DNA of 58,952 nt from Nautiliaceae bacterium (GTDB taxonomy: Bacteria > Campylobacterota > Campylobacteria > Campylobacterales > Nautiliaceae). The stretch spans positions 1-58,952 of the forward strand of contig JAMOSZ010000005.1 of NCBI GenBank assembly GCA_027062625.1. Reading direction: 5' to 3'. Of this stretch, positions 30,140 to 45,017 are shown piece by piece. The translations under genes were made by a program, and so were the position numbers. Position 1 is the stretch's first letter. Each line of letters starts with the position of its first letter. The notes beneath the pieces are model-generated. The model searched no databases and was not told the origin of the DNA. It was given only the letters and a program-made list of their open reading frames with translations.

Positions 30140-30712
30140 ATGAAAATTTTGGTGCTTGGAATTGGTAATATTTTATTTGGAGATGAGGGAATTGGGGTGC
30201 ATTTAGTAAATTATTTGGATGAGAAGTATGAATTTAGAGGTCCTCATCAAGTGGATTTGATAGATGGAGGGACTTTGGCTCAAAGACTTATTCCTATAAT
30301 AGTTGAATATGATAAAGTGTTTATTTTTGATACGGTTGATGTGGATGATGGAAAAATAGGAGATGTTTATTTTTTTGATTTTTTAGATGTGCCAGAGTGT
30401 GTGAGCTGGCAGGGAAGCGCTCATGAAGTGGAAATGCTTCAAACTCTTGAAATGATTCATATGATGGGTGATTTGCCAGAGACAAAAATTATTGGAGTTG
30501 TGCCTTATGTGATTGGAGAAGATACTACTTTTAATATTACCGAGCCTGTACTTAAAGCTGCAAAATTGATGGAAAAAATTTTAATTGATGAGCTTAAAAA
30601 ACTTGGAGTTGAGGTTAGAGTTAAAAATCCTAATGTCTCTTTGCAAGAGGTTGCAAAAATTTCTTATAAAAGAGGGGTACCAAAAGAATCTTTAAGAGGA
30701 TATGAGCTATGA
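30140..30712 (+). CDS. hydD: HydD, hydrogenase maturation endopeptidase
   Basis: 190 aa of the HybD/HyaD peptidase family: GIGNILFGDEGIGVHLV at the N-terminus with the conserved acidic Ni-binding Glu/Asp, FDTVDVDDG in the middle and a conserved HE in GSAHEVEML. It recognises nickel in the HydB precursor and cuts off the C-terminal extension after the last His. It overlaps hydE by 4 bp. Only HydB, not the hydrogenase at 23946, has an extension for it to cut. Confidence 0.95.
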   Translation: MKILVLGIGNILFGDEGIGVHLVNYLDEKYEFRGPHQVDLIDGGTLAQRLIPIIVEYDKVFIFDTVDVDDGKIGDVYFFDFLDVPECVSWQGSAHEVEMLQTLEMIHMMGDLPETKIIGVVPYVIGEDTTFNITEPVLKAAKLMEKILIDELKKLGVEVRVKNPNVSLQEVAKISYKRGVPKESLRGYEL

Positions 30713-32391
30713 TATTAAAATTTATTTTTAAAACTTCATCAACTCAGGGTATTATAGAGAAAATTTCTCTTAGAGTAGCAAAAGAGGTTGGAGCTGAAAT
30801 TGGGCTTAGTAGGGATTTGGATAAAATTTATGTTTATGTAAAAAATAATTTTGAAGAGTTTTCCAAAAGACTCTCAACTCAACTTCCAATTTCAATATTT
30901 TTAGAGAGTGTTGAAGCTGAGGTTGTAGATGAGTTTAGAGATGATTTAAAAAGAGATTTTCCTTCCATTTCTCTTCCACCTTGCCCAAAGTGTTTAGAAG
31001 AGGTAAAAAATCCAGATAGTCCTTACTATTATGATATTTTTCATCATTGTGAAGTTTGTGGATATAAAGCAGAAGGTAAGAAAACTTCAAAAGAGCTTTT
31101 TGAAAATCTTGCATCAAAAATTAAAGATAAAATCAAAATTCAAACAATGAATGGGGCATTTGAAGTGGGAGTTGATTTTAAAGATGCCGATGTTGTAGTT
31201 GCAAGGGATTTAGCAGCAATTGGAAAATATTTTTTCTCTTTTAAAAACGATGCAAAAGCCTTAGCAAGTATTGAAAAACCTATGATGAAAATGAAGACAA
31301 ATTTAGAGTTTAAAAAAAAGTTTGGTCCTTATAATGCGTTTTGGGTGAAGTTGCCAGATTGTATGGTATTGGAGCTTTTGTTTGATAGTAGTGATTTGGA
31401 GCTTTTAGCATTAAAAAGGATTGATAAGCCAGTTGATTTAGTGTTTGATGTTAAAATTCAAAAACCGCTTAAAGCAGTTGTTAGTGAGAGTGATGTATTA
31501 GTGTATGATGGAGATAGAGGGCTTTTGCCAAAGTTTGAGAAGTTTGTTAAAGAGGGGATAATTGGTAAGCATAAAAAGTATGTTGCATTTAGTAAAGATG
31601 ATAAAACAATTATAAAAAGAGACGATTTAAAAAATACGATTGAGGCAAAAGAAGTTTATGCTGGGTTTTATGGAGTTTTGAGTCAGTGGGAGCTTGAAGA
31701 TAAGAATGTTTTAGGCTTTTCTTTTTATAAGGATGATAATAAAATTTTTCTTTATTCAAAAAAATTTGGGCTTGTGGAGTATTTAGATTTTAAATTTGGG
31801 TTTGATGATTTTGAAGAGATTTTTGCGCTTATTGCCAGAATGAATGAGAGTGGGAAAAAATTGGTTGAGAATTTTGTAAATAAAAGAGCTTCATTATTTA
31901 ATCACGCTATAAGTTGTGATATTTCAAGTAAAAGCAAAGGGATTTATTATCTTTGGGGGCTTGTTGGAATTTTACTTGGGCTTGGGGATGATGTAGAGAG
32001 TGGGGTTAGAGAACTTTTAAAAAGAGCGAATGAAGCGATGACCAAAAAAGGTCCAAGGATTGATTATAAATTTGATGGGAATAACTTAAATCCTCTTTGG
32101 ACAATAAGAACTGCTATGAGTTTTAATTTAGCTGGGGTTGATGAGTATTTGCTAAGTTATGGGGTTGTTGAGAGTTTTGCTGAATTTTTGAGTAATATAT
32201 ATGAAGAAGCCAATAAAGATAATAACCTTGATGGTGCGATTATTGTTGGGGATATGTTTGAGGGGGAGTTTTTTGCAAAAATATACTCTTATATTAAGAA
32301 AAATTATCCTACTTTTATTCCAAAAGCTTTGCCAAGTAGTGGCGCAATAGAGGCGTATGGAAGTTTAGTGATTGCTTCAAAGGGTGATTAA
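30709..32391 (+). CDS. hydE: HydE, HypF-like hydrogenase maturation protein
   Basis: 560 aa. Residues about 95-135 hold a zinc-finger pair (CPKCLEEV and HHCEVCGYKAEG) like that of HypF carbamoyltransferases. The C-terminal half has a HypF-like layout (HAISCDISSKSKGIYYLWGLVG). The N-terminal acylphosphatase domain of true HypF is not evident. HydE is known from the hyd operon of Wolinella as needed for hydrogenase formation, but its exact step is not settled. It overlaps both neighbours by 1-4 bp. Confidence 0.85.
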   Translation: MILKFIFKTSSTQGIIEKISLRVAKEVGAEIGLSRDLDKIYVYVKNNFEEFSKRLSTQLPISIFLESVEAEVVDEFRDDLKRDFPSISLPPCPKCLEEVKNPDSPYYYDIFHHCEVCGYKAEGKKTSKELFENLASKIKDKIKIQTMNGAFEVGVDFKDADVVVARDLAAIGKYFFSFKNDAKALASIEKPMMKMKTNLEFKKKFGPYNAFWVKLPDCMVLELLFDSSDLELLALKRIDKPVDLVFDVKIQKPLKAVVSESDVLVYDGDRGLLPKFEKFVKEGIIGKHKKYVAFSKDDKTIIKRDDLKNTIEAKEVYAGFYGVLSQWELEDKNVLGFSFYKDDNKIFLYSKKFGLVEYLDFKFGFDDFEEIFALIARMNESGKKLVENFVNKRASLFNHAISCDISSKSKGIYYLWGLVGILLGLGDDVESGVRELLKRANEAMTKKGPRIDYKFDGNNLNPLWTIRTAMSFNLAGVDEYLLSYGVVESFAEFLSNIYEEANKDNNLDGAIIVGDMFEGEFFAKIYSYIKKNYPTFIPKALPSSGAIEAYGSLVIASKGD

Positions 32392-33587
32392 TGGCACTTT
32401 TGTTTATAGCTATTTATGCGCTATATGTTTTTGTAAAGATATTAATTGAGATAAGAGAGATTATTTTTATAAAAGATGCTTTGTTAAAAGAAGCGGTTTT
32501 GATGCAAGAAGAGGAGTATAAGGTAGCTGGGCTTTATGCTATTTATTCTCACTTTTTAAAAATTTTATCCGATATCGTCTCTTTGATAATTGTTGTTTTT
32601 TGGTTTGAGATTGGATTTAAGATTATAAATTTTGGAGATGGATTGTTTAAGGAGGTAGCAGAAGTTGTTGTCTTTTTTGGAGTTAATTATCTTTTTACTT
32701 TGCCGTTAAAAATTTATAGTAAAAAAATTGATGAGAAATTTGGATTTAGCACAAGTGATTGGAAACTATTTTTCAAAGATGAAATTAAAAAGGCGATTTT
32801 GTTTTTGATTTTTGGGACATTAATTTTTGTAGGGCTTATCTATTTTATTGATAATTTTAAAAATTGGTGGCTTATTGGTTTTTTATTTTCGTTTTTGGTT
32901 GTTATTTTGGTTAATTTGCTTTTTCCTTTTTTTGCAAGACTTTTTAATAAGTTTGAGCCTTTAAAAGATGAGGAGTTAAAAACGGAGATAAAAACTCTTT
33001 TAAAAAAAGCTGGATTTAAAACGGATAAGATATTTGTAGTAGATGCAAGTAAGAGAGATACTAGACTTAATGCTTATTTTGCAGGAATTGGGAAAAGTAA
33101 GAGAGTTGTTTTGTATGATACTTTGATTAAAAAGTTAGACAAAGATGAGCTTTTAGCAGTCCTTGGGCATGAGCTTGGGCATTTTAAACATAAGGATATT
33201 TTTAAAAATATAGCCGTTATTGGAGTTATGCTTTTTATTCTTTTTTTTGTATTAGGTCATATTCCAGATAGTTTTTTTGAAGATATTGGATTGAGCAAAA
33301 ATGGAGCTGGTATTATAATGATTGGGATTTTTGTGAGTGATATTTTATTTTTCTTACTTCAACCTCTTATTAACTTAGTAAGTAGGGTAAATGAGTTTAG
33401 AGCTGATGAGTTTGGAAGTTTACTTGTTAGTAAAAATGCTTTAAGAGAAGCACTTGTTAAGCTTGTAAGCGAGAATAAACATTTTCCAAGAGTTAGTAAG
33501 CTTTATTCAATTTTATATTATACCCATCCGCCAATTTTGGAGAGAATAAAAAGGCTTGAAGATGAGAGTGTTAATAACAGGGATTAG
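32391..33587 (+). CDS. Ste24-type M48 membrane metallopeptidase
   Basis: 398 aa with about five to six membrane helices and the zinc motif HELGH in VLGHELGHFKHKD (near residue 262), with the downstream Glu in NEFRADEF. The block RDTRLNAYFAGIGKSKRVVLYDTL is typical of the Ste24/CAAX protease 1 branch of M48. In bacteria such proteins act in membrane protein quality control. It starts at the last base of hydE and is the first gene of an overlapping series running to prmC. Confidence 0.9.
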   Translation: MALLFIAIYALYVFVKILIEIREIIFIKDALLKEAVLMQEEEYKVAGLYAIYSHFLKILSDIVSLIIVVFWFEIGFKIINFGDGLFKEVAEVVVFFGVNYLFTLPLKIYSKKIDEKFGFSTSDWKLFFKDEIKKAILFLIFGTLIFVGLIYFIDNFKNWWLIGFLFSFLVVILVNLLFPFFARLFNKFEPLKDEELKTEIKTLLKKAGFKTDKIFVVDASKRDTRLNAYFAGIGKSKRVVLYDTLIKKLDKDELLAVLGHELGHFKHKDIFKNIAVIGVMLFILFFVLGHIPDSFFEDIGLSKNGAGIIMIGIFVSDILFFLLQPLINLVSRVNEFRADEFGSLLVSKNALREALVKLVSENKHFPRVSKLYSILYYTHPPILERIKRLEDESVNNRD

Positions 33588-34206
33588 TAGAGGTATAGGT
33601 TATGGTTTAGCTAAGTATTATCTTCAAAGAGGGTATGAGGTTATTGGGCTTGGAAGAGTTAATCCTTTTAGAGAAATTGAATTTTATGAAGTTGATATGA
33701 GGACTTTTGAAAAGTTAGGAAAGATTGCAAGTAAAATAAAAAATATTGATTTAGCGATTTTAAATGCTGGGGTTTTAGGGGAGATTAAAGAGTTAAAAGA
33801 TTGGAGTATAAGAGAGCTTGAAGATGTTTTTGATGTAAATGTTTGGGCGAATAAAATTTTAATAGATGAATTGGATGCTAAAAAGATTGTAGCTATTAGT
33901 AGCGGAGCTGGGGTAAATGGAAATAAAGGTTGGGGAGGTTATTCTCTTAGTAAGTGCGCTTTAAATATGATGGTTAAAATTTATGCAAAAGAGATGGATA
34001 AAAAAATATATGCGCTTGCTCCTGGGGTTATTGAGACGGATATGGTAAAAAAAGTTATAAGTGTAAATAAAAGTAAGTTTCCAAGCGTTAATAGGGTAGA
34101 AGCTGGAATGATTGATTTAGAAAGAGGAATTAAGAGAATAATAAAAGCAATTGATAGACTTGATGAATTTGAGAGTGGAAGCTTTGTGGATGTGAGGGAG
34201 TTATGA
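33562..34206 (+). CDS. Short-chain dehydrogenase/reductase
   Basis: 214 aa from the ATG at 33562 (a TTG two codons earlier is possible). The NAD(P)-binding TGISRGIG, the NAGV motif, and the catalytic Ser and YSLSK are all present. Substrate unknown. It overlaps the end of the peptidase gene by 26 bp and the start of the next gene by 4 bp. Confidence 0.9.
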   Translation: MRVLITGISRGIGYGLAKYYLQRGYEVIGLGRVNPFREIEFYEVDMRTFEKLGKIASKIKNIDLAILNAGVLGEIKELKDWSIRELEDVFDVNVWANKILIDELDAKKIVAISSGAGVNGNKGWGGYSLSKCALNMMVKIYAKEMDKKIYALAPGVIETDMVKKVISVNKSKFPSVNRVEAGMIDLERGIKRIIKAIDRLDEFESGSFVDVREL

Positions 34207-35252
34207 AACATATTGAGCTTTTGTCTCTTTTGTGTAGACATAAAAAGTTTTTAGATGAAGCCTATAAGCAAAAGAGACTTTTGTTTGTTCCAAGTGAGCT
34301 TGTTGAAGTTGGACTTTTTAGTAAGGTTGGAGGATATTATTATTTAAATGATGTTTATCTAAATTTTGTTGATACTCTTCTTGCAAGGGCTGATTTTAGT
34401 TATGTAGCTGAGGATTTTGATAAAGAGCTAAAAAAGCTTTTAGATTTAAAAGAAGATTATAAATTAAGTAAGAATTTTTATTTAAAAGATGCAATTTTTT
34501 CTCTTTTAAATAGAATTTATCAAGGAATGAAGAATAGAGATAAAAAACTTCTTAGCTTAATTGAAAGTTTAGAGAGTGATGATGTTAGTGAGCTTGATAT
34601 TTTAATTAAAGAGGCTAAGAGGATTTTAGCTTCAATTGAAGAGATAATGCAAAAAAATTCTCAGATAAGCAAAGTTTTTGAGGAATTTGAAGGATTTGAG
34701 GAGTTTAGAGAGTTTGTTGGAGATGGGTTGGTTGATATTATTAAATTAAATCAAAATATTGATTTGTATTTAAAAAGATTAAAAGAGTTTATCTCTCAAA
34801 GCGAGAAAAAAAGAAAATTTAATCAAAAACTAAATAAAATAGCTTTAATGATTTTAAAAGAGGATGGTAGGATTGATGAATTTTTGGCTTCTAAAAGATT
34901 TGTTTATAAAGGCAAGATTACTCCGCTTGTAGATACTACTTACTTAAATTATCAAAAAGCAAGAGAGGTTATAGGTAGCATAAAAAAAGAAAAAAATATT
35001 AAAAAAGTCTCTATTAAAAAAGATTTAAAAGAAGTAATAGAGCTTATTAATTTAAAAAAGCTTTTAGCAAGAGTAAGAGGGAGTGAAGATATTTTTAAAG
35101 CGATTGTTGAATATGTTGGTAAGATTGATAGGGAGCTTTTAAATGAGAGTATTAGGATATTTGTTTATATTTTAAATGAATATGATAAAGAGCTTATTTA
35201 TACGGATGAGTTTAATGAATTTAATGTAAGGGTTGTAAGATGGAGAGTGTGA
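34203..35252 (+). CDS. jetA: JetA/MksF-like kleisin subunit of a Wadjet-type SMC complex
   Basis: 349 aa, no membrane segment, long helical stretches, N-terminal winged-helix-like region (ELLSLLCRHKKFLDEAYKQKRLLFVPSELVEVGLF). On its own it would be unrecognised. Position directly before the JetB-, JetC- and JetD-like genes and its overall make-up identify it as the kleisin (MukF/MksF type). It is shorter than commonly reported JetA proteins (about 450-500 aa). 4-bp overlap upstream and 13-bp overlap downstream point to coupled translation. Confidence 0.75.
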   Translation: MKHIELLSLLCRHKKFLDEAYKQKRLLFVPSELVEVGLFSKVGGYYYLNDVYLNFVDTLLARADFSYVAEDFDKELKKLLDLKEDYKLSKNFYLKDAIFSLLNRIYQGMKNRDKKLLSLIESLESDDVSELDILIKEAKRILASIEEIMQKNSQISKVFEEFEGFEEFREFVGDGLVDIIKLNQNIDLYLKRLKEFISQSEKKRKFNQKLNKIALMILKEDGRIDEFLASKRFVYKGKITPLVDTTYLNYQKAREVIGSIKKEKNIKKVSIKKDLKEVIELINLKKLLARVRGSEDIFKAIVEYVGKIDRELLNESIRIFVYILNEYDKELIYTDEFNEFNVRVVRWRV

Positions 35253-35752
35253 TTTTTGATATTTTAAGTAAAGGAGTTATTATCTCTACAAATTCTTCTA
35301 AATTTATTAAAGAATCAAGATGGCTTTTGGATGAAGATAATTTTAATAGTTTTAATTTTCTTTTAAATAGACTAGGATTTTATTTAGTAGGTGAGAGAGG
35401 GTATTTTTATCTTAGCAAAGAGTTAAAAGCAAGTGAAGAGGAGAAAGTTTTAAATGCTCATAAGAATATAATTTTAGCTATTGCTCTTTTAAAGAGAGTT
35501 TTTTTGCATCTTGATAAAGGACATAGGATTAAAAAGAGCGATTTTATTAAAAGATTTGAGAGTAAAAAAGATGAAGCAATTGTAAAAGTATTGTTTGATA
35601 GTGATGATTTAATAGAGATTACAGATAAGCTTTTTAATCTGCTTGAAAAGAATTATATCTTAGAGAAGGTTTCAAAGCAGGATGAGTATTTGGTTTTAAA
35701 TAGTATTGATTATTATTTGGACATTGTTGATGGAATAGGAGATGGAGAATGA
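35240..35752 (+). CDS. jetB: JetB/MksE-like winged-helix subunit (DUF4194 type)
   Basis: 170 aa; a small winged-helix protein with alternating helices and a strand hairpin (GFYLVGERGYFYLSKE), the form expected of KITE subunits that bind the kleisin. Length is a little below the usual ~200. The assignment rests mostly on its place between the kleisin and the SMC ATPase with 13- and 4-bp overlaps. No other motif is visible. Confidence 0.75.
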   Translation: MESVIFDILSKGVIISTNSSKFIKESRWLLDEDNFNSFNFLLNRLGFYLVGERGYFYLSKELKASEEEKVLNAHKNIILAIALLKRVFLHLDKGHRIKKSDFIKRFESKKDEAIVKVLFDSDDLIEITDKLFNLLEKNYILEKVSKQDEYLVLNSIDYYLDIVDGIGDGE

Positions 35753-38700
35753 AGAGAGTATATTTTTTTAATGCGGCGAATTTTCCATATGCTGAGATTG
35801 ATTTGAGTAAAGGAAATGTTTTTTTTGTAGGTGATAATGGAAGTGGTAAAACTACTGCTATTAGAGCGATTCATTATTATTATAACTCTGATGTAAAGTC
35901 TCTTGGAATAGATGTAAATAAAAAAGGATTTAAGGATTTTTATTTTCCTTATGATAACTCTTTTATTGTTTATGATTTTGGAGATTATTTTGTATTAATG
36001 TATAAAAGATATGGAGAAATAAAGAAGATTTTTAGCAAACAGAAGTTTGACTTAAATAAGATAAAAGATAATTTAGAACTAAAAGATGTTATCTCTTATG
36101 CAAAGGAGACTTTTTATTATATACCAAAAACTAATGAAGAGTATAAAAAGACAATTTATGGATTAAATAGTAGGTATTTAGATTTTAAGCTAACTACGAT
36201 TAAAAATTATCAAACTTTTATAAATCTTTACAATAAGATTTTTAATGTAAATAAAGCGGTTTTTGATACAAAAAGTATAAAAGAAACAATCTTTACAACT
36301 CTTGATAGAGTAGAACTTGGAGAAATTGAGTATGAGGAGTTTTTAAGAGAGCTTAATAATTATAGGCACTATTTTCTTTTTTATAAAAAATTTAAAGAGC
36401 AAGAGGCAAATATTGAAAAACTTTTTTTATATAAAGAATCTCTCTTGAAGTTACAACAAGAGATTAAAGAGCTTCTTGGAAAGATTGCATATAAAAAAGA
36501 AGTTGAAGAGAGATTACTTTTAGAAGTAATAGATAAATTAAAAAATCTTGAAGAGAAGAAAAGAAAAGTAGCAGGGCAGTTTAAGTATTTTAAAGAGAAG
36601 TTTGAGTGCATTGATAGAAAGATTAATTCTTTAATTTTTGAGTTAGAATCAAAGATTGAAGAGATAGAGGAATTAAGAGAAAAATTTAATTTAAAAGCTT
36701 TGCAAAAAGCAAAGAGGGACTTATTAGAAAAAGATGAGCTTAGTAAAAAACTTATCTTTTTAAAAACGACTTTAAATGAGCTTATAAGTGGAATAAAGAG
36801 TGAAGTTGAAGTTATAGAAGATGAGATTGATGCTTTAAAAAGAGAGCTTAGAGTTTTAAGAGAAGAACTTAGGGAAAAAGAGATTGTGTTAAAAAGAGAA
36901 GTGGCAGAAGAGTTTGAAGAGGAGAGTGATAGGATAAAAGAGGAGTATTTGCAAAAAGAGTATCAGATTTTAGAAGAGATAGATAAATTAAAAGAACTTA
37001 TAAAAAGCTTAGAAGAGAAAAAAGAGAGTTATTTAAAAGAGTTAAAAAAAATTAAAGAGAAATATGAGTTAAAAAGAGAGGCTTTAAAAGAAGAGATTAA
37101 AGAGAAGATAAAGAGTCTAAAAAGAGAGATTAAAGAGATTGATTTTAAAAAAGAGAGTTTGGTTGATGAGATTTATAACTTAAAAAAGAAGCTAAATAAA
37201 TTAAAAACTAAGTTAAAAGAGGATATTGAAAAAGTAAAAGAACATTATGAAGAAAAAATAGTTAAAAATCAAGAGAAAATTAAGGATTATGAAGCTATTT
37301 TGCATACTCCAAAAAACTCTTTTAAAGAGTTTTTAAATCAAAATGTAGAAAATTGGGAAGAGGAGTTATATCCTGTTATTGATGAGGAGCTTTTAAGAAA
37401 AAGTATAGATGAATTAAAACCAAGGATTGTTAGTGAGGTTATTTTTGGGATAGAGCTTAATAAGAGTAGTTTAAAATCAATTCCTACAATGAAGGAGGCA
37501 CAAGAGGAGATAGAGAGGCTTAGGATTTTAAATGAGAGTTTGCAAGAAGAGTTAGAGAGTAAGATTTTGATTTTGGAGAAGGAGTATAAGAAAAAAGAGA
37601 TAGAGATTTTGTCTTTGATTGAAGTTAATCAAGAAGAGATTAAAAGAATTGAGAGAGAAAAAGAGTTTTTAAAAGAAGAGATTGAGAGATTAAATAAAGA
37701 GTTAAAAGAGAATCTTGCAAAATTTGATGAAATAGAAAAGAGTGAGATTAGATTAGTTAATGTTAACATTAAAAAACAAGAGGATAAGATTAAAGAAATA
37801 TTAAATGAGATTAAAAGTTTAAGAAGAGAGATTGATAATTTAAAAAGAGAACTTAAAAGTGAAATAAAATCTCTTGAAAATAGTAAAGAAAAAAGATTAA
37901 AAGAGTTAAAAGAGAGATTAAAAAAAGAGTATGCAAAGAAAGAGATAAAAATTAAACAAAAGATAGATGAATTAATCTCTAAAAAAGAAGCAATCTCAAA
38001 AGATGAGAGAATAAAAGAACTTCAAAAAGAGATTTCTAAGATAGAAGAGAGGCTAAAAAGGATTCAAAGAAGTGAGTTGTTTTTGAGGGAGTATGAAGAA
38101 AAAGAAGAGCTTTTAGAAAATTTAGATAAGTTAAAAACTTCTCTTAGAGAATATAAAGAGAAAAAAAGAAAGTTTGAAGAGTTTTATAATAATCTTATGA
38201 AAAAAATTGAAGAGAAGTATAGAAGATTTGAAAGGGAGATTTTAGAAAGAGAAAAAGAGCTTGATAGGATAAAAGAGGGATTAAGAGAGGTTAAGAAATT
38301 GAGTTTGCCAAGCGAAAAAAGAGAGAGTAATGAATTTTTGGTAGTGCTTATTGAGGATTTGAAAAGAAAAGAAGCGGAATTTAAGGAAAAAAGAGTTAGT
38401 TTAAAAGATGTTGCAAGCAATATAAAAACTGCACTTAATAGATTTAGTATTAATGGACTTGATGTTAATTTTAATATTGAGCTTTTAGCCAGCCTTGATA
38501 AGAACGAGCTTGATAAGATAGATGAGCTTTATCTTTTTAAGAGTAGGAAATTTGAAGTGTTAAATAGAGCAATGGCAAAGGGGATTAAAAACTTAGTTAG
38601 TGGGATTTTGGAGAAAAAATTTGATAGATTTGAGAGGGCAAAAGAGGAGTTTTTACATCAAATAAGAAGAATAAATAAGAATTTAAGCAAAGTAGATTTT

Positions 38701-39285
38701 GGGATTATAAGAGATATAAGAATTGAAATTGAAGAGAGCAAAAAAGATATATTAAAGCTTTTTGATGAGATAAAAGAGGAAGTTACTATTCTTATGGGAT
38801 TATTGGATAATGAGAGTTTGTTTTTTGATAAAGTTGAGAGCGAGAGAAGAATTAAAAAGATTGAAGAGTTGTTTGATAGGATTAAAAGAGAATTAAAAGA
38901 AGAAAAATTTAGCTTAGTTGATGTTGTGGATATTAATGTAAAATTTATTGAAAACGAAAAAGAAAATTCCCTTAAACTTATAAAAAACGAAAGCTCAACT
39001 GGTGGGTCAATTTTGCTAAAAATTGCAATTGCGGTAAGTCTTCTTGAACTTTTCTTAAAAGAGAGGGCTCCTTTGTTTTTGATTTTGGATGAGGTGAGTG
39101 TATTATCAACTAAGAATCAAAAACTTTTGAAAGATTTTGTAAATGAAAAAGGACTTGGCGTAATTTATGTAACCCCTGACTTGCCACTTGTTGATGTTGA
39201 GGATATTGATATTTATAAATTTAGAAATGTAGGTGGAGAGTTTGAGGTTGTGAGATTGATAGGTAAAGAGGGGGTTAAAATTTGA
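35749..39285 (+). CDS. jetC: JetC/MksB-like SMC ATPase
   Basis: 1178 aa. Walker A GDNGSGKT at residues 28-35, then very long coiled coils (about 230-480 and 590-920) around a hinge-like region, and a C-terminal head with the signature SSTGGS (1082-1087) and Walker B LFLILDEV with Asp1114-Glu1115. This is the MukB/MksB/JetC architecture: it extrudes DNA loops and, in Wadjet, hands small circular DNA to the nuclease JetD. Lysine/glutamate-rich codons reflect the coiled coil, not foreign origin. Overlaps both neighbours by 4 bp. Confidence 0.9.
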   Translation: MKRVYFFNAANFPYAEIDLSKGNVFFVGDNGSGKTTAIRAIHYYYNSDVKSLGIDVNKKGFKDFYFPYDNSFIVYDFGDYFVLMYKRYGEIKKIFSKQKFDLNKIKDNLELKDVISYAKETFYYIPKTNEEYKKTIYGLNSRYLDFKLTTIKNYQTFINLYNKIFNVNKAVFDTKSIKETIFTTLDRVELGEIEYEEFLRELNNYRHYFLFYKKFKEQEANIEKLFLYKESLLKLQQEIKELLGKIAYKKEVEERLLLEVIDKLKNLEEKKRKVAGQFKYFKEKFECIDRKINSLIFELESKIEEIEELREKFNLKALQKAKRDLLEKDELSKKLIFLKTTLNELISGIKSEVEVIEDEIDALKRELRVLREELREKEIVLKREVAEEFEEESDRIKEEYLQKEYQILEEIDKLKELIKSLEEKKESYLKELKKIKEKYELKREALKEEIKEKIKSLKREIKEIDFKKESLVDEIYNLKKKLNKLKTKLKEDIEKVKEHYEEKIVKNQEKIKDYEAILHTPKNSFKEFLNQNVENWEEELYPVIDEELLRKSIDELKPRIVSEVIFGIELNKSSLKSIPTMKEAQEEIERLRILNESLQEELESKILILEKEYKKKEIEILSLIEVNQEEIKRIEREKEFLKEEIERLNKELKENLAKFDEIEKSEIRLVNVNIKKQEDKIKEILNEIKSLRREIDNLKRELKSEIKSLENSKEKRLKELKERLKKEYAKKEIKIKQKIDELISKKEAISKDERIKELQKEISKIEERLKRIQRSELFLREYEEKEELLENLDKLKTSLREYKEKKRKFEEFYNNLMKKIEEKYRRFEREILEREKELDRIKEGLREVKKLSLPSEKRESNEFLVVLIEDLKRKEAEFKEKRVSLKDVASNIKTALNRFSINGLDVNFNIELLASLDKNELDKIDELYLFKSRKFEVLNRAMAKGIKNLVSGILEKKFDRFERAKEEFLHQIRRINKNLSKVDFGIIRDIRIEIEESKKDILKLFDEIKEEVTILMGLLDNESLFFDKVESERRIKKIEELFDRIKRELKEEKFSLVDVVDINVKFIENEKENSLKLIKNESSTGGSILLKIAIAVSLLELFLKERAPLFLILDEVSVLSTKNQKLLKDFVNEKGLGVIYVTPDLPLVDVEDIDIYKFRNVGGEFEVVRLIGKEGVKI

Positions 39286-40022
39286 GAAGAGATAGAGTTT
39301 ATAGGATAATTAAAGATATAAAAGAGGGCAGAATTAAAACTAAAAAAGATAAAAAAGATATTTTAGCACTTGTTAAAGAGTTTAGCGATAAAGAGGGGGA
39401 GAGTAGATATTTTTTGCTTTTTGAGGGTAGTAAGCCAAGAATTAAGGATGAAGTTGTTTTTAAAAAGTTTGTAAAATATTATCTTGGATGTTATTTTGAA
39501 GAATTTGAAGAAGTTAAAAGTAAAAAAGAACTTATTGAAGTCTTTAAAAATTCAAAATTAAAAAATATCCATACTAGTGATATAACAATAGTGCATAGGA
39601 AAAGAGGTAGACTTCCTCAAATTTTTTATGATGAATTTGAACCTAGGGTTAATGGAAGAGTAGTAGTTGTAGAGAATTATGAAAGTTTTTTGAGAATTAA
39701 TTTTGATTTATTTGATGAAGAAGATTTTGTATATCTTGGTGGATTTTGTAATAAAAAAACTGCTAAGTTTTTAGAAAATAAGGATATTTTATTTTTTGGA
39801 GATTTTGATTTTTATGGGATGATGATTTTTGATACTCTTAAAGCTAAATCAAAAGATTTTTTTATACCTACTAATTTAGAGTATCTTTTTGAAAATTATT
39901 CCAATAAAGAACTTTATTTAAATCAAAAATTTATTGAAAATAAAGTAAAAAAAGTAAATCCTGTTTATAAATTAATAAAAAAATATTTAGGAGTAGTTGA
40001 ACAGGAGATTTTGAATATATGA
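39282..40022 (+). CDS. jetD: JetD/MksG-like Toprim nuclease subunit, compact
   Basis: 246 aa from a TTG start. The Toprim core is visible: Glu in VVVVENYESF (residue 131), Asp residues in GDFDFYG (174 and 176; the common form is GDIDTHG), and a C-terminal EQE (240-242). Known JetD proteins are usually about 350-400 aa with an N-terminal arm (DUF3322). Here that part is reduced to about 100 residues. JetD cleaves plasmid DNA presented by JetABC. Overlaps jetC and prmC by 4 bp each. Confidence 0.82.
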   Translation: MRRDRVYRIIKDIKEGRIKTKKDKKDILALVKEFSDKEGESRYFLLFEGSKPRIKDEVVFKKFVKYYLGCYFEEFEEVKSKKELIEVFKNSKLKNIHTSDITIVHRKRGRLPQIFYDEFEPRVNGRVVVVENYESFLRINFDLFDEEDFVYLGGFCNKKTAKFLENKDILFFGDFDFYGMMIFDTLKAKSKDFFIPTNLEYLFENYSNKELYLNQKFIENKVKKVNPVYKLIKKYLGVVEQEILNI

Positions 40023-40822
40023 AAATAAAAGAATTTTTAAAAGAGATAAATGGTAGTTATATTTTAGAAAAAGTCTTAAATAAAGATAGAGCTTGGCTTT
40101 TTTTAAATGATGAACTTCAAGTTCCAAAAGAAGCGATTGAAATTTTAGAAAAAGTAAAGAGTGGGTATCCAGTTGAATATCTTTTTGAAGAAGTCTATTT
40201 TTATAAAGATAAGTTTTATATAAAAGAAGGAGTACTTATCCCAAGAGATGATACCGAGGTTGTGGTAGAGAGAGGGATAGAGCTTGTTAGGAGGTTAGGG
40301 GCTAAGAGGGTTGTTGATTGCTGTACTGGGAGTGGGGTTATTGCGATAGAGATAGCAAAACATACAGATACAAAGATTTTGGCAACAGATATAAGTGAGG
40401 AAGCATTAGAGGTAGCACGAAAAAATATTATGTTAAGGGATGTGGAAGAAAAAGTAAAAGTTATAAAAAGTAATTTATTAAAACCTCAAAATCCAAAAGA
40501 AGTTATAGATTTTGGGTTTGAAGTAGATAATAATCTAATAAAAGGAGAGATTTTAATCTCAAATCCTCCTTATGTAGAAAATTCTTGGGTTAAGCCAAAT
40601 AAGTATGAACCAGATATTGCGTTTTTTGGGGGAGAAGATGGGCTTGATATTATCAAAAGACTTATAAAAGAAGCAAAAGAGGCTGGTTACATAGCGGCTA
40701 TAATTGAAATTGGATATAAGCAAAAAGAGGCTTTAAGCAGATTTTTAAAAAATAAAGTTGAGAGTTTTGAATTTTTTAAAGATTTAGGAGGGAGAATTAG
40801 AGGAGTTGAGGTGCTTTTTTGA
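40019..40822 (+). CDS. prmC: PrmC, peptide chain release factor N5-glutamine methyltransferase
   Basis: 267 aa. SAM-binding VDCCTGSGVIAIEIAK and the catalytic NPPY (ISNPPYVENSW, near residue 182) identify the family. It methylates the GGQ glutamine of release factors RF1 and RF2. As an essential-type housekeeping gene it closes the operon that contains the Wadjet-like system. Its 3' end overlaps the convergent MFS gene by 26 bp. Confidence 0.95.
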   Translation: MKIKEFLKEINGSYILEKVLNKDRAWLFLNDELQVPKEAIEILEKVKSGYPVEYLFEEVYFYKDKFYIKEGVLIPRDDTEVVVERGIELVRRLGAKRVVDCCTGSGVIAIEIAKHTDTKILATDISEEALEVARKNIMLRDVEEKVKVIKSNLLKPQNPKEVIDFGFEVDNNLIKGEILISNPPYVENSWVKPNKYEPDIAFFGGEDGLDIIKRLIKEAKEAGYIAAIIEIGYKQKEALSRFLKNKVESFEFFKDLGGRIRGVEVLF

Positions 40823-42269: not shown

Positions 42270-45017
42270 ATGGACATTAATAAATTATTAAATTCAAATA
42301 AACTGCTAACTCAAATCTACTTTGATATTCAAAAATATTATGACTCTTTATATCCTAATGCAGTTGTTTTAATGGAGGTTGGAAGTTTTTTTGAAGTTTA
42401 TGAGGCTGAGGGAATTGGGAGAGCAAGAGAGATAGCAAATGTTTTAAATATCCAGCTTACTAAAAAAAATAAAACAATTCCAGAAGTTAACATTAAAAAT
42501 CCTCTAATGGCAGGCTTTCCATCAGCCGCGCTTGATAGATATTTGGAAAGACTTATTGATGAGGAGAGATATACTATAATTCTTATTCGTCAAAAAGGGA
42601 CTCCTCCAAATGTAAAGAGGTATTTAGCAGAGATTATCTCTCCTGGGGTTAATCTTGATTCAAAATCGTATGAAAATTATGTAACTAGTATTATTGTTGA
42701 AAAATATTCAGCCTATCATGTAGGGTTTGCAAATATTGATGTAAATACTGGTAAAAGCTATGTGTTTGAGGGGTATTCTACAAAGGATGACCCAACTTTT
42801 GCTTTGGATGAACTTTTTAGATTGCTTCAAACATATAAGAGTGGTGAGATTATTTTGACCTTAAAAAATGTTGATTGCGATGAGATTGTAAATTATTTAG
42901 AGCTTGATGGAAAAAATATAATTATTAATAAAACGAGAATGAAAATTGAGTATCAAAATGAGCTTTTTAGAAGAGTTTATAATATTAATTCTTTATTAAC
43001 TCCAATTGAGATAATGAATCTTGAAAAGTTTCCTTTAATTACAGAAGCCCTTGGAATTTTACTTGAATTTGTAATAGCTCATAATAAAGAGCTTCTAAAT
43101 AAAGTTAAGCTTCCAGTTTTAATTGAGAGTGATAAGTTTGTTTATCTTGGGAATAATCCAATAAAGCAGCTTGAAATTGATAAAGTTTTAAAGTTGATTG
43201 ACAAAACAAAAACTCCAATGGGGAAAAGACTTATAAAAGAGAGGCTTTTTAATCCAATTTATGATAAGGAAGAGTTAAAAAAAAGGTATGAAGCAGTTGA
43301 ATTTATGTTAAAAAGGCATAAAGAGTTTGATGAGATTAAAGAGATTTATGATATTGAGAGGTTAAATAGAAAAATAAAAATAAAAAAACTTCATCCTTTT
43401 GAATTAAACTTTTTACTCTCTTCTTTGAAGGCTTCAAGTTCCATTTATACAAAACTGAAAAAGAAATCTACAAAGATAGATAATTTTATTGAATATTTAG
43501 AGAGTATCTTTGATTTGCAAAAGGCAGTTTTTAAGATTGATGAGATTAAAGAGAGTTTTTTCAAAAAAGGAATTGATAAGGAGCTTGATGAGCTTATAAA
43601 AGAGAGGGAATATTATGTTAATGAGATTTATAAAATTAAAAAAAAGATAGAATCACTAGGAGATATAAAAGTTGATATTGGAGTCTTAGAAAAAGAAGGA
43701 TATTATTTATCTCTTACAAAAAGCAGGTTTAAGTTAATTAAAGATAAATTTTTGGAAACTTTTTTGGAAGTTGATGGGAGAGAGGTCTTTTTTAAAGATT
43801 TTAATATAAAGTATTTAACAAATAGCGTAAAAATTAGAGGAGGTGTGATTGAAGAGTTAGGTGAGAAGATTTTGGCGCTTGATGTAAAAATTGCGTCTTT
43901 GACAAAAGAGATTTATCTTAAAAAACTTGAAGAGATGAGCAGGTTTGATTTTTTAGATGAGGTTGGAGGTGAGATTGCAAAAGTTGATGTAGCAATTTCA
44001 AGTGCAAAAGTTGCAAAAGAGAGAAACTATTTTAAGCCAGTTTTAAGTGATAATAAAGCAAAATTTTTTGAGCTTAGGCATCCTTTAATTGAAGCAAACG
44101 AAGCAAATGGAGTTTATGTTCCAAATGATATAGATTTTAATGAGTATGATGGGATGCTTTTGTATGGGATAAATAGCTCGGGGAAGAGTTCTTTGATGAA
44201 AAGTGTTGGAATCGCGCTTTTTTTAGCTCAGGGTGGATTTTTTGTGCCAGCGAAGATGGAATTTAATCCTTATAGGGCAGTTTTTACCAGGATTGAGGCA
44301 AAGGATAATTTGGCTAAGGGGCTTTCTACTTTTGCGGTTGAGATGCTAGAACTTAAAAACATTTTCAATAGAGCCGATAAAAATTCACTTGTGTTAGGAG
44401 ATGAGATAGCTCACGGCACAGAGACTCTCTCAGCTCTTAGTATAGTTGCAAGTGCGGTTATAAAACTTGCAAAAAGAGAAGTAAATTTTGTTTTTGCTAC
44501 TCATTTGCATCAGCTTATGGACCTTGAAGAGATTAAGGAGCTTCCTAATGTAGTTGCAAAGCATTTAGAAGTTTGGTTTGATGGAGAAAAACTTATTTAT
44601 GATAGGAAACTTAAAGATGGGAGTGGAAGTAGTGTTTATGGGCTTGAATTTGCAAAGTCAATTTATATGGATAGAGAGTTTTTAGAAATGGCAGATAAGA
44701 TAAGGAAAAAACTTGCAAAAGAGTATAATGCGTTAGAGCTTTTAATAAAGAAGAAAAAGTCGCGTTATAATAAGAGTTTATATCTTACAACTTGTGCAAT
44801 TTGTGGTAGAGTAGTTGAAGATGTTCATCATATAAAAGAGAAGACAAAAGCAAAAGATGGATTTATTGGACATATGAATGTTAATCATAAGTTTAATTTG
44901 ATTCCACTTTGTAAAGAGCATCATAAAAAAGTGCACGAAGGAAAAATAAGGATTCTTGGATTTGTTACGACAAGTAAAGGAATTGAACTTCATTGGGAGG
45001 AAGTTGAGAAGGTGTAG
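42270..45017 (+). CDS. mutS: MutS7-type mismatch repair protein fused to an HNH endonuclease
   Basis: 915 aa. The mismatch-reading Phe-x-Glu motif is kept as FFE (residues 40-42). Connector, lever and clamp regions follow, then the ATPase with Walker A GINSSGKSS (633-641) and the ABC signature region. From about residue 840 a zinc-type HNH domain is appended: CAIC (842-845), VHHI (852-855), NHKFNLIP and LCKEHHKKVH (880-889). This is the MutS7 architecture known from some Campylobacterota, large DNA viruses and octocoral mitochondria. It could bind and cut mismatched DNA without MutL/MutH. It has its own promoter. Confidence 0.93.
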   Translation: MDINKLLNSNKLLTQIYFDIQKYYDSLYPNAVVLMEVGSFFEVYEAEGIGRAREIANVLNIQLTKKNKTIPEVNIKNPLMAGFPSAALDRYLERLIDEERYTIILIRQKGTPPNVKRYLAEIISPGVNLDSKSYENYVTSIIVEKYSAYHVGFANIDVNTGKSYVFEGYSTKDDPTFALDELFRLLQTYKSGEIILTLKNVDCDEIVNYLELDGKNIIINKTRMKIEYQNELFRRVYNINSLLTPIEIMNLEKFPLITEALGILLEFVIAHNKELLNKVKLPVLIESDKFVYLGNNPIKQLEIDKVLKLIDKTKTPMGKRLIKERLFNPIYDKEELKKRYEAVEFMLKRHKEFDEIKEIYDIERLNRKIKIKKLHPFELNFLLSSLKASSSIYTKLKKKSTKIDNFIEYLESIFDLQKAVFKIDEIKESFFKKGIDKELDELIKEREYYVNEIYKIKKKIESLGDIKVDIGVLEKEGYYLSLTKSRFKLIKDKFLETFLEVDGREVFFKDFNIKYLTNSVKIRGGVIEELGEKILALDVKIASLTKEIYLKKLEEMSRFDFLDEVGGEIAKVDVAISSAKVAKERNYFKPVLSDNKAKFFELRHPLIEANEANGVYVPNDIDFNEYDGMLLYGINSSGKSSLMKSVGIALFLAQGGFFVPAKMEFNPYRAVFTRIEAKDNLAKGLSTFAVEMLELKNIFNRADKNSLVLGDEIAHGTETLSALSIVASAVIKLAKREVNFVFATHLHQLMDLEEIKELPNVVAKHLEVWFDGEKLIYDRKLKDGSGSSVYGLEFAKSIYMDREFLEMADKIRKKLAKEYNALELLIKKKKSRYNKSLYLTTCAICGRVVEDVHHIKEKTKAKDGFIGHMNVNHKFNLIPLCKEHHKKVHEGKIRILGFVTTSKGIELHWEEVEKV

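Follow-up and report, generated by a model that had tools for sequence, protein, structure and literature searches.

A compact, divergent MksBEFG (Wadjet-like) locus with a putatively detachable nuclease at a fixed operon site in Nautiliaceae

Introduction

Nautiliaceae are bacteria of the deep-sea-vent type, and the genome of one of them carries a complete SMC gene set within a housekeeping operon. Does this locus cut plasmids, as its likeness to Wadjet systems would suggest, or does it organise the chromosome of its host? The question arises from a stretch of 58,952 nucleotides (the window), which belongs to an assembly of 1.48 Mb that is 99.9% complete. An earlier note, made from the letters of the window alone, had called a compact Mks/Wadjet system there and had surmised that it was a long-term resident which may also serve as the cell's condensin.

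Results

A four-gene run within a housekeeping operon

On the + strand of the window, a [NiFe] hydrogenase group is followed by genes for a Ste24-type peptidase, an SDR oxidoreductase, MksF, MksE, MksB, JetD and PrmC. The peptidase, of the M48 family (32391..33587, +; PF01435, 1e-42), has an orthologue at the same site in relatives and so marks the site as fixed. The SDR (33562..34206, +; PF00106, 3e-23) is the left border of the cassette site, adjoining MksF here or prmC in empty sites; it more likely starts at ATG 33562 (MRVLITG) than at TTG 33556, the start given in the ORF list. The MksF-MksE-MksB-JetD block spans 34203-40022, and prmC (40019..40822, +), recognised by PF17827 PrmC_N at 24.3 bits, barely above the cut-off of 23.4, and by methyltransferase profiles, is the right border. 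Adjacent genes overlap by 4 bp at the SDR/MksF, MksE/MksB, MksB/JetD and JetD/PrmC junctions and by 13 bp at MksF/MksE. The ORFs thus bear out the arrangement described in the earlier note, in which kleisin, KITE, SMC and Toprim genes follow one another with overlaps of 4-13 bp between a Ste24/SDR pair upstream and prmC downstream. This is the A, B, C, D operon of four genes by which Wadjet is recognised and, since conserved orthologues exist for all four proteins, the locus is not a product of chance. No mobile-element genes were seen at the cassette site of the window; the cassette is inserted scarlessly into the housekeeping operon.

At 25-27%, the block has the lowest raw GC in the window, which probably reflects the many Lys and Glu residues of the coiled coil. 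The GC3 values of MksF (0.186), MksE (0.193) and MksB (0.232) lie near the window mean (0.220, s.d. 0.034), whereas that of JetD (0.126) stands at -2.8 s.d. from it. The host-like base composition claimed for the system therefore holds for MksFEB and fails for JetD.

Two other genes of the window were characterised. A 560-aa protein encoded between the hydrogenase genes and Ste24 (30709-32391) gave Rdx and HypF-finger matches, both sub-threshold; its position suggests a possible hydrogenase factor of the HydE type. At 42270-45017 lies the gene of a MutS-family protein with MutS domains I, III and V above cut-off. Its C-terminal stretch resembles an HNH motif (CAICGR...HHIKEK...CKEHHKKVH); the protein also matches DUF968 weakly and is reminiscent of the MutS7 type.

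Identity of the four subunits

MksE/JetB (170 aa; 35240..35752, +) is a KITE subunit of the MksE family, matching PF21980 at 56.7 bits (5e-15) against a cut-off of 27. MksB/JetC (1178 aa; 35749..39285, +) is a MukB-like SMC ATPase (PF12128, DUF3584, 71.8 bits, cut-off 31) with intact ATPase motifs, namely Walker A GDNGSGKT, signature SSTGGS and Walker B FLILDEV, whose key residues are the same in all 12 aligned sequences. JetD/MksG (246 aa; 39282..40022, +) matches PF09983 JetD_C at 35.5 bits (cut-off 22). With MksE, DUF3584 and JetD_C all above their curated Pfam cut-offs, the compact Mks/Wadjet identity is supported. The comparison of each subunit with Wadjet types I-III, which had been proposed as a check, gave no such agreement: among the PADLOC Wadjet models, JetA and JetB had no match, the best JetC match was E=0.033, and JetD1 matched at 1e-7 across the C-terminal part only. 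The compact form is thus nearly missed by the defence-system model library PADLOC-DB 2.0.0.

MksF/JetA (349 aa; 34203..35252, +) gave no significant match in sequence profile searches, and was recognised by its fold, its operon position and its orthologues. The first nine PDB matches obtained with Foldseek for its AlphaFold model (pLDDT 76.5) are MukF chains and one JetA chain, all weak (E 1e-3 to 3e-2, with low TM-scores). The modelled fold supports, but does not prove, that MksF is a kleisin of the MukF/JetA type. A sequence search of the PDB with the JetD, MksF, MksE and MksB profiles returned only coiled-coil and other chance-like matches.

Across 15 aligned JetD sequences, one of them truncated at a contig end, E131, D174 and D176 never vary and E240/E242 hardly do. 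The tested or proposed residues of Corynebacterium glutamicum MksG are E236, D279, E349 and E351 (PMC10123090); E131, D174, E240 and E242 correspond to these, and the E-to-D spacing is 43 in both proteins. JetD is thus a Toprim nuclease of the MksG/JetD kind with its catalytic Glu and Asp residues in place, and their retention points to plasmid defence. Compared with C. glutamicum MksG, 105 fewer residues precede the catalytic Glu, and this compact form is common to related Campylobacterota. Foldseek found weak Toprim-like matches for the JetD model (pLDDT 83.8), with no solved JetD among the best 50. The view that JetA and JetD are smaller than the common forms is well founded for JetD (246 aa, where the JetD1 profiles of PADLOC have 382-409 positions), whereas for JetA it depends on a comparison made through the fold search only, in which 349 aa stand against the 466 aa of the E. 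coli JetA chain.

MksFEB is a long-term resident of one site

MksB matches occur in 11 of the 21 family genomes, that of G176 being weak and short, and in 20 of 397 phylum genomes; the other 377 have none. SDR and prmC border the cassette in G000, G015, G079, G178, G179 and G033, in the last of which an HI0933-like gene sits between SDR and MksF. In G185 and G186, MksB runs into prmC on contigs that end before reaching SDR, and in G189 MksFEB is located elsewhere. The same site is empty in G078 and G184, where SDR and prmC overlap by 4 bp, and nearly so in G187, which has the HI0933-like gene between the two borders, and in G048, which has a single opposite-strand gene there; these four genomes are 97-100% complete. 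In G182, which is 89% complete, SDR is missing and Ste24 adjoins prmC. Several relatives, G177 among them, are represented by draft MAGs.

At least three genera of the family have MksFEB at one and the same site, which supports the supposition that it has long been resident there. The overlap with prmC, which had been read as a hint of function, was rejected as functional coupling, because prmC overlaps or abuts whatever gene lies upstream in relatives, SDR included where the site is empty.

JetD is missing from most relatives, and the cassette is exchanged

JetD was found in 3 of 21 family genomes, all of the window's genus, and a profile search of the 397 phylum genomes detected no JetD anywhere in G015, G178, G033 or G185. 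JetD-less forms also occur in a Sulfuricurvum and in the maf-MksFEB-bioF group, for which absence refers to the locus only. Between G179 and G185, neither of which has a JetD match, pN/pS was 0.20 for MksB and 0.07 for MksE, with PrmC at 0.13 and MutS at 0.10; the comparison covers MksB and MksE, the MksF gene of G185 being truncated at a contig end. These low values show purifying selection on MksB and MksE, which are thus kept even where JetD is missing.

The N-terminal segment of MksE was considered as a contact for JetD and rejected, the segment being much alike in Nautiliaceae with and without JetD. In the JetD-less maf-MksFEB group (L086-L088, L091, L095, L103) the MksE N-terminal motif is MMKG instead of LSKG, which may be a lineage effect only. 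Two Campylobacteraceae contigs (L092, L094) carry MksB without adjacent MksF and MksE.

A tree of MksF, MksE and MksB groups the Nautiliaceae forms with support 1.0. DNA identity between contig C162 of G177 and G079 is 89% over MksFEB and 75-76% over Ste24/SDR, with the switch at the SDR/MksF junction. The second G177 copy and G079 are 87.8% identical in JetD and 78.7% in MksFEB, and pS is 0.45 for JetD against 0.69-0.74 for the three MksFEB genes. Both G177 copies call for care, as that draft is 70% complete. Flank-gene and MksFEB trees otherwise broadly agree. To judge from these identities, the cassette moves horizontally as a block. In Nautiliaceae, MksFEB would be a cassette resident between SDR and prmC that is retained, lost or exchanged as one piece, and JetD its detachable part, present in the window genome and missing from most MksFEB-bearing relatives.

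Smc-ScpAB is not found, and a needed condensin is unlikely

As the earlier note had advised, the host genome was searched for Smc, ScpA and ScpB; none was found there or in the sampled relatives. The search covered TIGR02168, PF02616 and PF04079. SMC (TIGR02168) above its cut-off and ScpA (PF02616) were each found in 0 of 150 phylum genomes, the positive controls being detected, and ScpB (PF04079) in 0 of 21 family genomes. The lack of Smc-ScpAB in the phylum applies to these sampled genomes. Two of the better SMC_N matches in the host genome are RecN-like and SbcC-like proteins, each below its NCBIfam cut-off. Among literature hits, represented mostly by their titles and abstracts, no statement was located that Campylobacterota lack SMC.

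These results invite the reading that the complex is the cell's own condensin, needed for chromosome organisation in the absence of Smc-ScpAB, and that JetD is its accessory. The constraint on MksB and MksE in JetD-less relatives is in keeping with this, as is the fact that Pseudomonas aeruginosa MksBEF acts in chromosome segregation (PMC7485682). A sole condensin should, however, be kept in close relatives that have no detected Smc-ScpAB, and the near-complete genomes G048, G078, G187 and G184 lack MksB and also have no detectable ScpB or, for G048 and G078, SMC and ScpA. The many phylum genomes without an MksB match, the exchange of the cassette and the catalytic JetD retained in the window weigh in the same direction. 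The needed role proposed earlier is therefore not upheld, and we consider the condensin reading unlikely; the complex may have a side role on the chromosome, or a condensin role in JetD-less relatives. It had also been stated that a complete Smc-ScpAB together with a patchy locus would mark an ordinary defence system; the locus is indeed patchy, but Smc-ScpAB was not found.

Passenger genes at the operon

In G079, McrBC is inserted between MksB and JetD. In G015 (L022, 12219-16672) an 838-aa WD40-repeat protein and a 646-aa calcineurin-like phosphoesterase occupy the place of JetD; the latter matches NCBIfam anti-phage models below their cut-offs (best E 2e-23), and its occurrence in G015 only, among 397 phylum genomes, speaks neither for linkage to MksFEB nor for independence from it. 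A PLD-SNF2 helicase and a type IIG restriction-methylase lie between JetD and MksF in a Sulfurimonas (L102, 1386-8375); L121 (8260-15408) has a pair that resembles it in position and in N-terminal sequence. YhcG (L090) or RES (L082) is found between MksF and MksE, and PIN genes (L083, L093) or a cytosine methylase with a PD-(D/E)XK protein (L088) in or beside the operon. An enrichment of such genes at this operon is an impression only.

Such passengers would fit a broader view, in which MksFEB of Campylobacterota serves generally as a platform for DNA loops on which effectors can be swapped (JetD; JetD and McrBC; WD40 and calcineurin-like phosphoesterase; type IIG and helicase), the effector-free form being the cell's only SMC condensin. 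We regard this as distinctly unlikely. The passengers count in favour of the defence reading preferred below and, together with the patchy distribution and the odd GC3 of JetD, also of an ordinary mobile Wadjet defence island that landed by chance in the operon of this strain. Residence at the same site in three genera already weakens that explanation; the broad match of MksFEB and flank-gene trees, the host-like codon composition of MksFEB and the lack of visible mobile-element genes at the window site make it quite improbable. That the locus is a decaying or repurposed remnant, with JetD in the course of loss and defence given up, is barely credible since the four frames of the window are open with catalytic residues intact, even though JetD-less forms are the commoner in the family, JetD, MksF and MksB are each split into several frames in an apparently decaying Sulfurimonas operon (L110), and the JetD match of G258 has in-frame stops beside open MksF, MksE and MksB.

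Discussion

The reading that we prefer, with a probability of roughly 0.7, is that the locus is a compact and divergent MksBEFG (Wadjet-like) system, a loop extruder at a fixed site within an operon, with a detachable nuclease, which serves in plasmid defence here. Loop extrusion and plasmid cutting are known from relatives (PMC10586767, PMC10123090). By analogy with these, MksB, MksE and MksF would together extrude DNA loops as an SMC complex; where the DNA is small and circular, extrusion would reach its end and the complex would stall, whereupon an attached JetD/MksG Toprim dimer would cut the plasmid. The window copy most likely works in this way, and for the JetD-less relatives we infer a chromosome-organising or other non-cutting role.

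At a single chromosomal site, then, Nautiliaceae show forms with the nuclease, forms without it and empty forms, and Smc-ScpAB was not found in these hosts. Such a series, occurring in nature, offers a way to ask if a nuclease-free SMC complex still organises chromosomes, and it bears on how bacteria manage without a known condensin.

Both C. glutamicum MksBEFG and the type I Wadjet JetABCD share with the window an SMC protein, a kleisin, a KITE subunit and a Toprim nuclease in one operon, as well as the nuclease residues, the E-to-D spacing and the ATPase motifs. The window proteins differ from type I Wadjet in sequence, so far that the PADLOC models nearly miss them, and C. glutamicum has Smc-ScpAB (PMC7083940), whereas none was found in the window host. 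The compact architecture is not unique to the window: the Persicobacter plasmid pPP6 has the same order F-E-B-D with E-B and B-D overlaps, and encodes a 285-aa JetD-like protein (4e-21 to the JetD profile built here). It differs in phylum (Bacteroidota), in its plasmid location and in the weak likeness of its MksF (2.5e-7). MukBEF, the chromosomal condensin of E. coli, has no nuclease subunit; MukF chains rank first for the model of the window MksF. Finally, P. aeruginosa MksBEF shares the three-subunit core and is the counterpart of the JetD-less Nautiliaceae forms and of the maf-MksFEB-bioF group; it differs from the window copy, in which JetD is present, and P. aeruginosa has Smc-ScpAB besides (PMC7485682). 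A review proposes that the chromosomal MksBEF of Pseudomonas derived from Wadjet through the loss of JetD (PMC10586767), a proposal to which the Nautiliaceae series relates.
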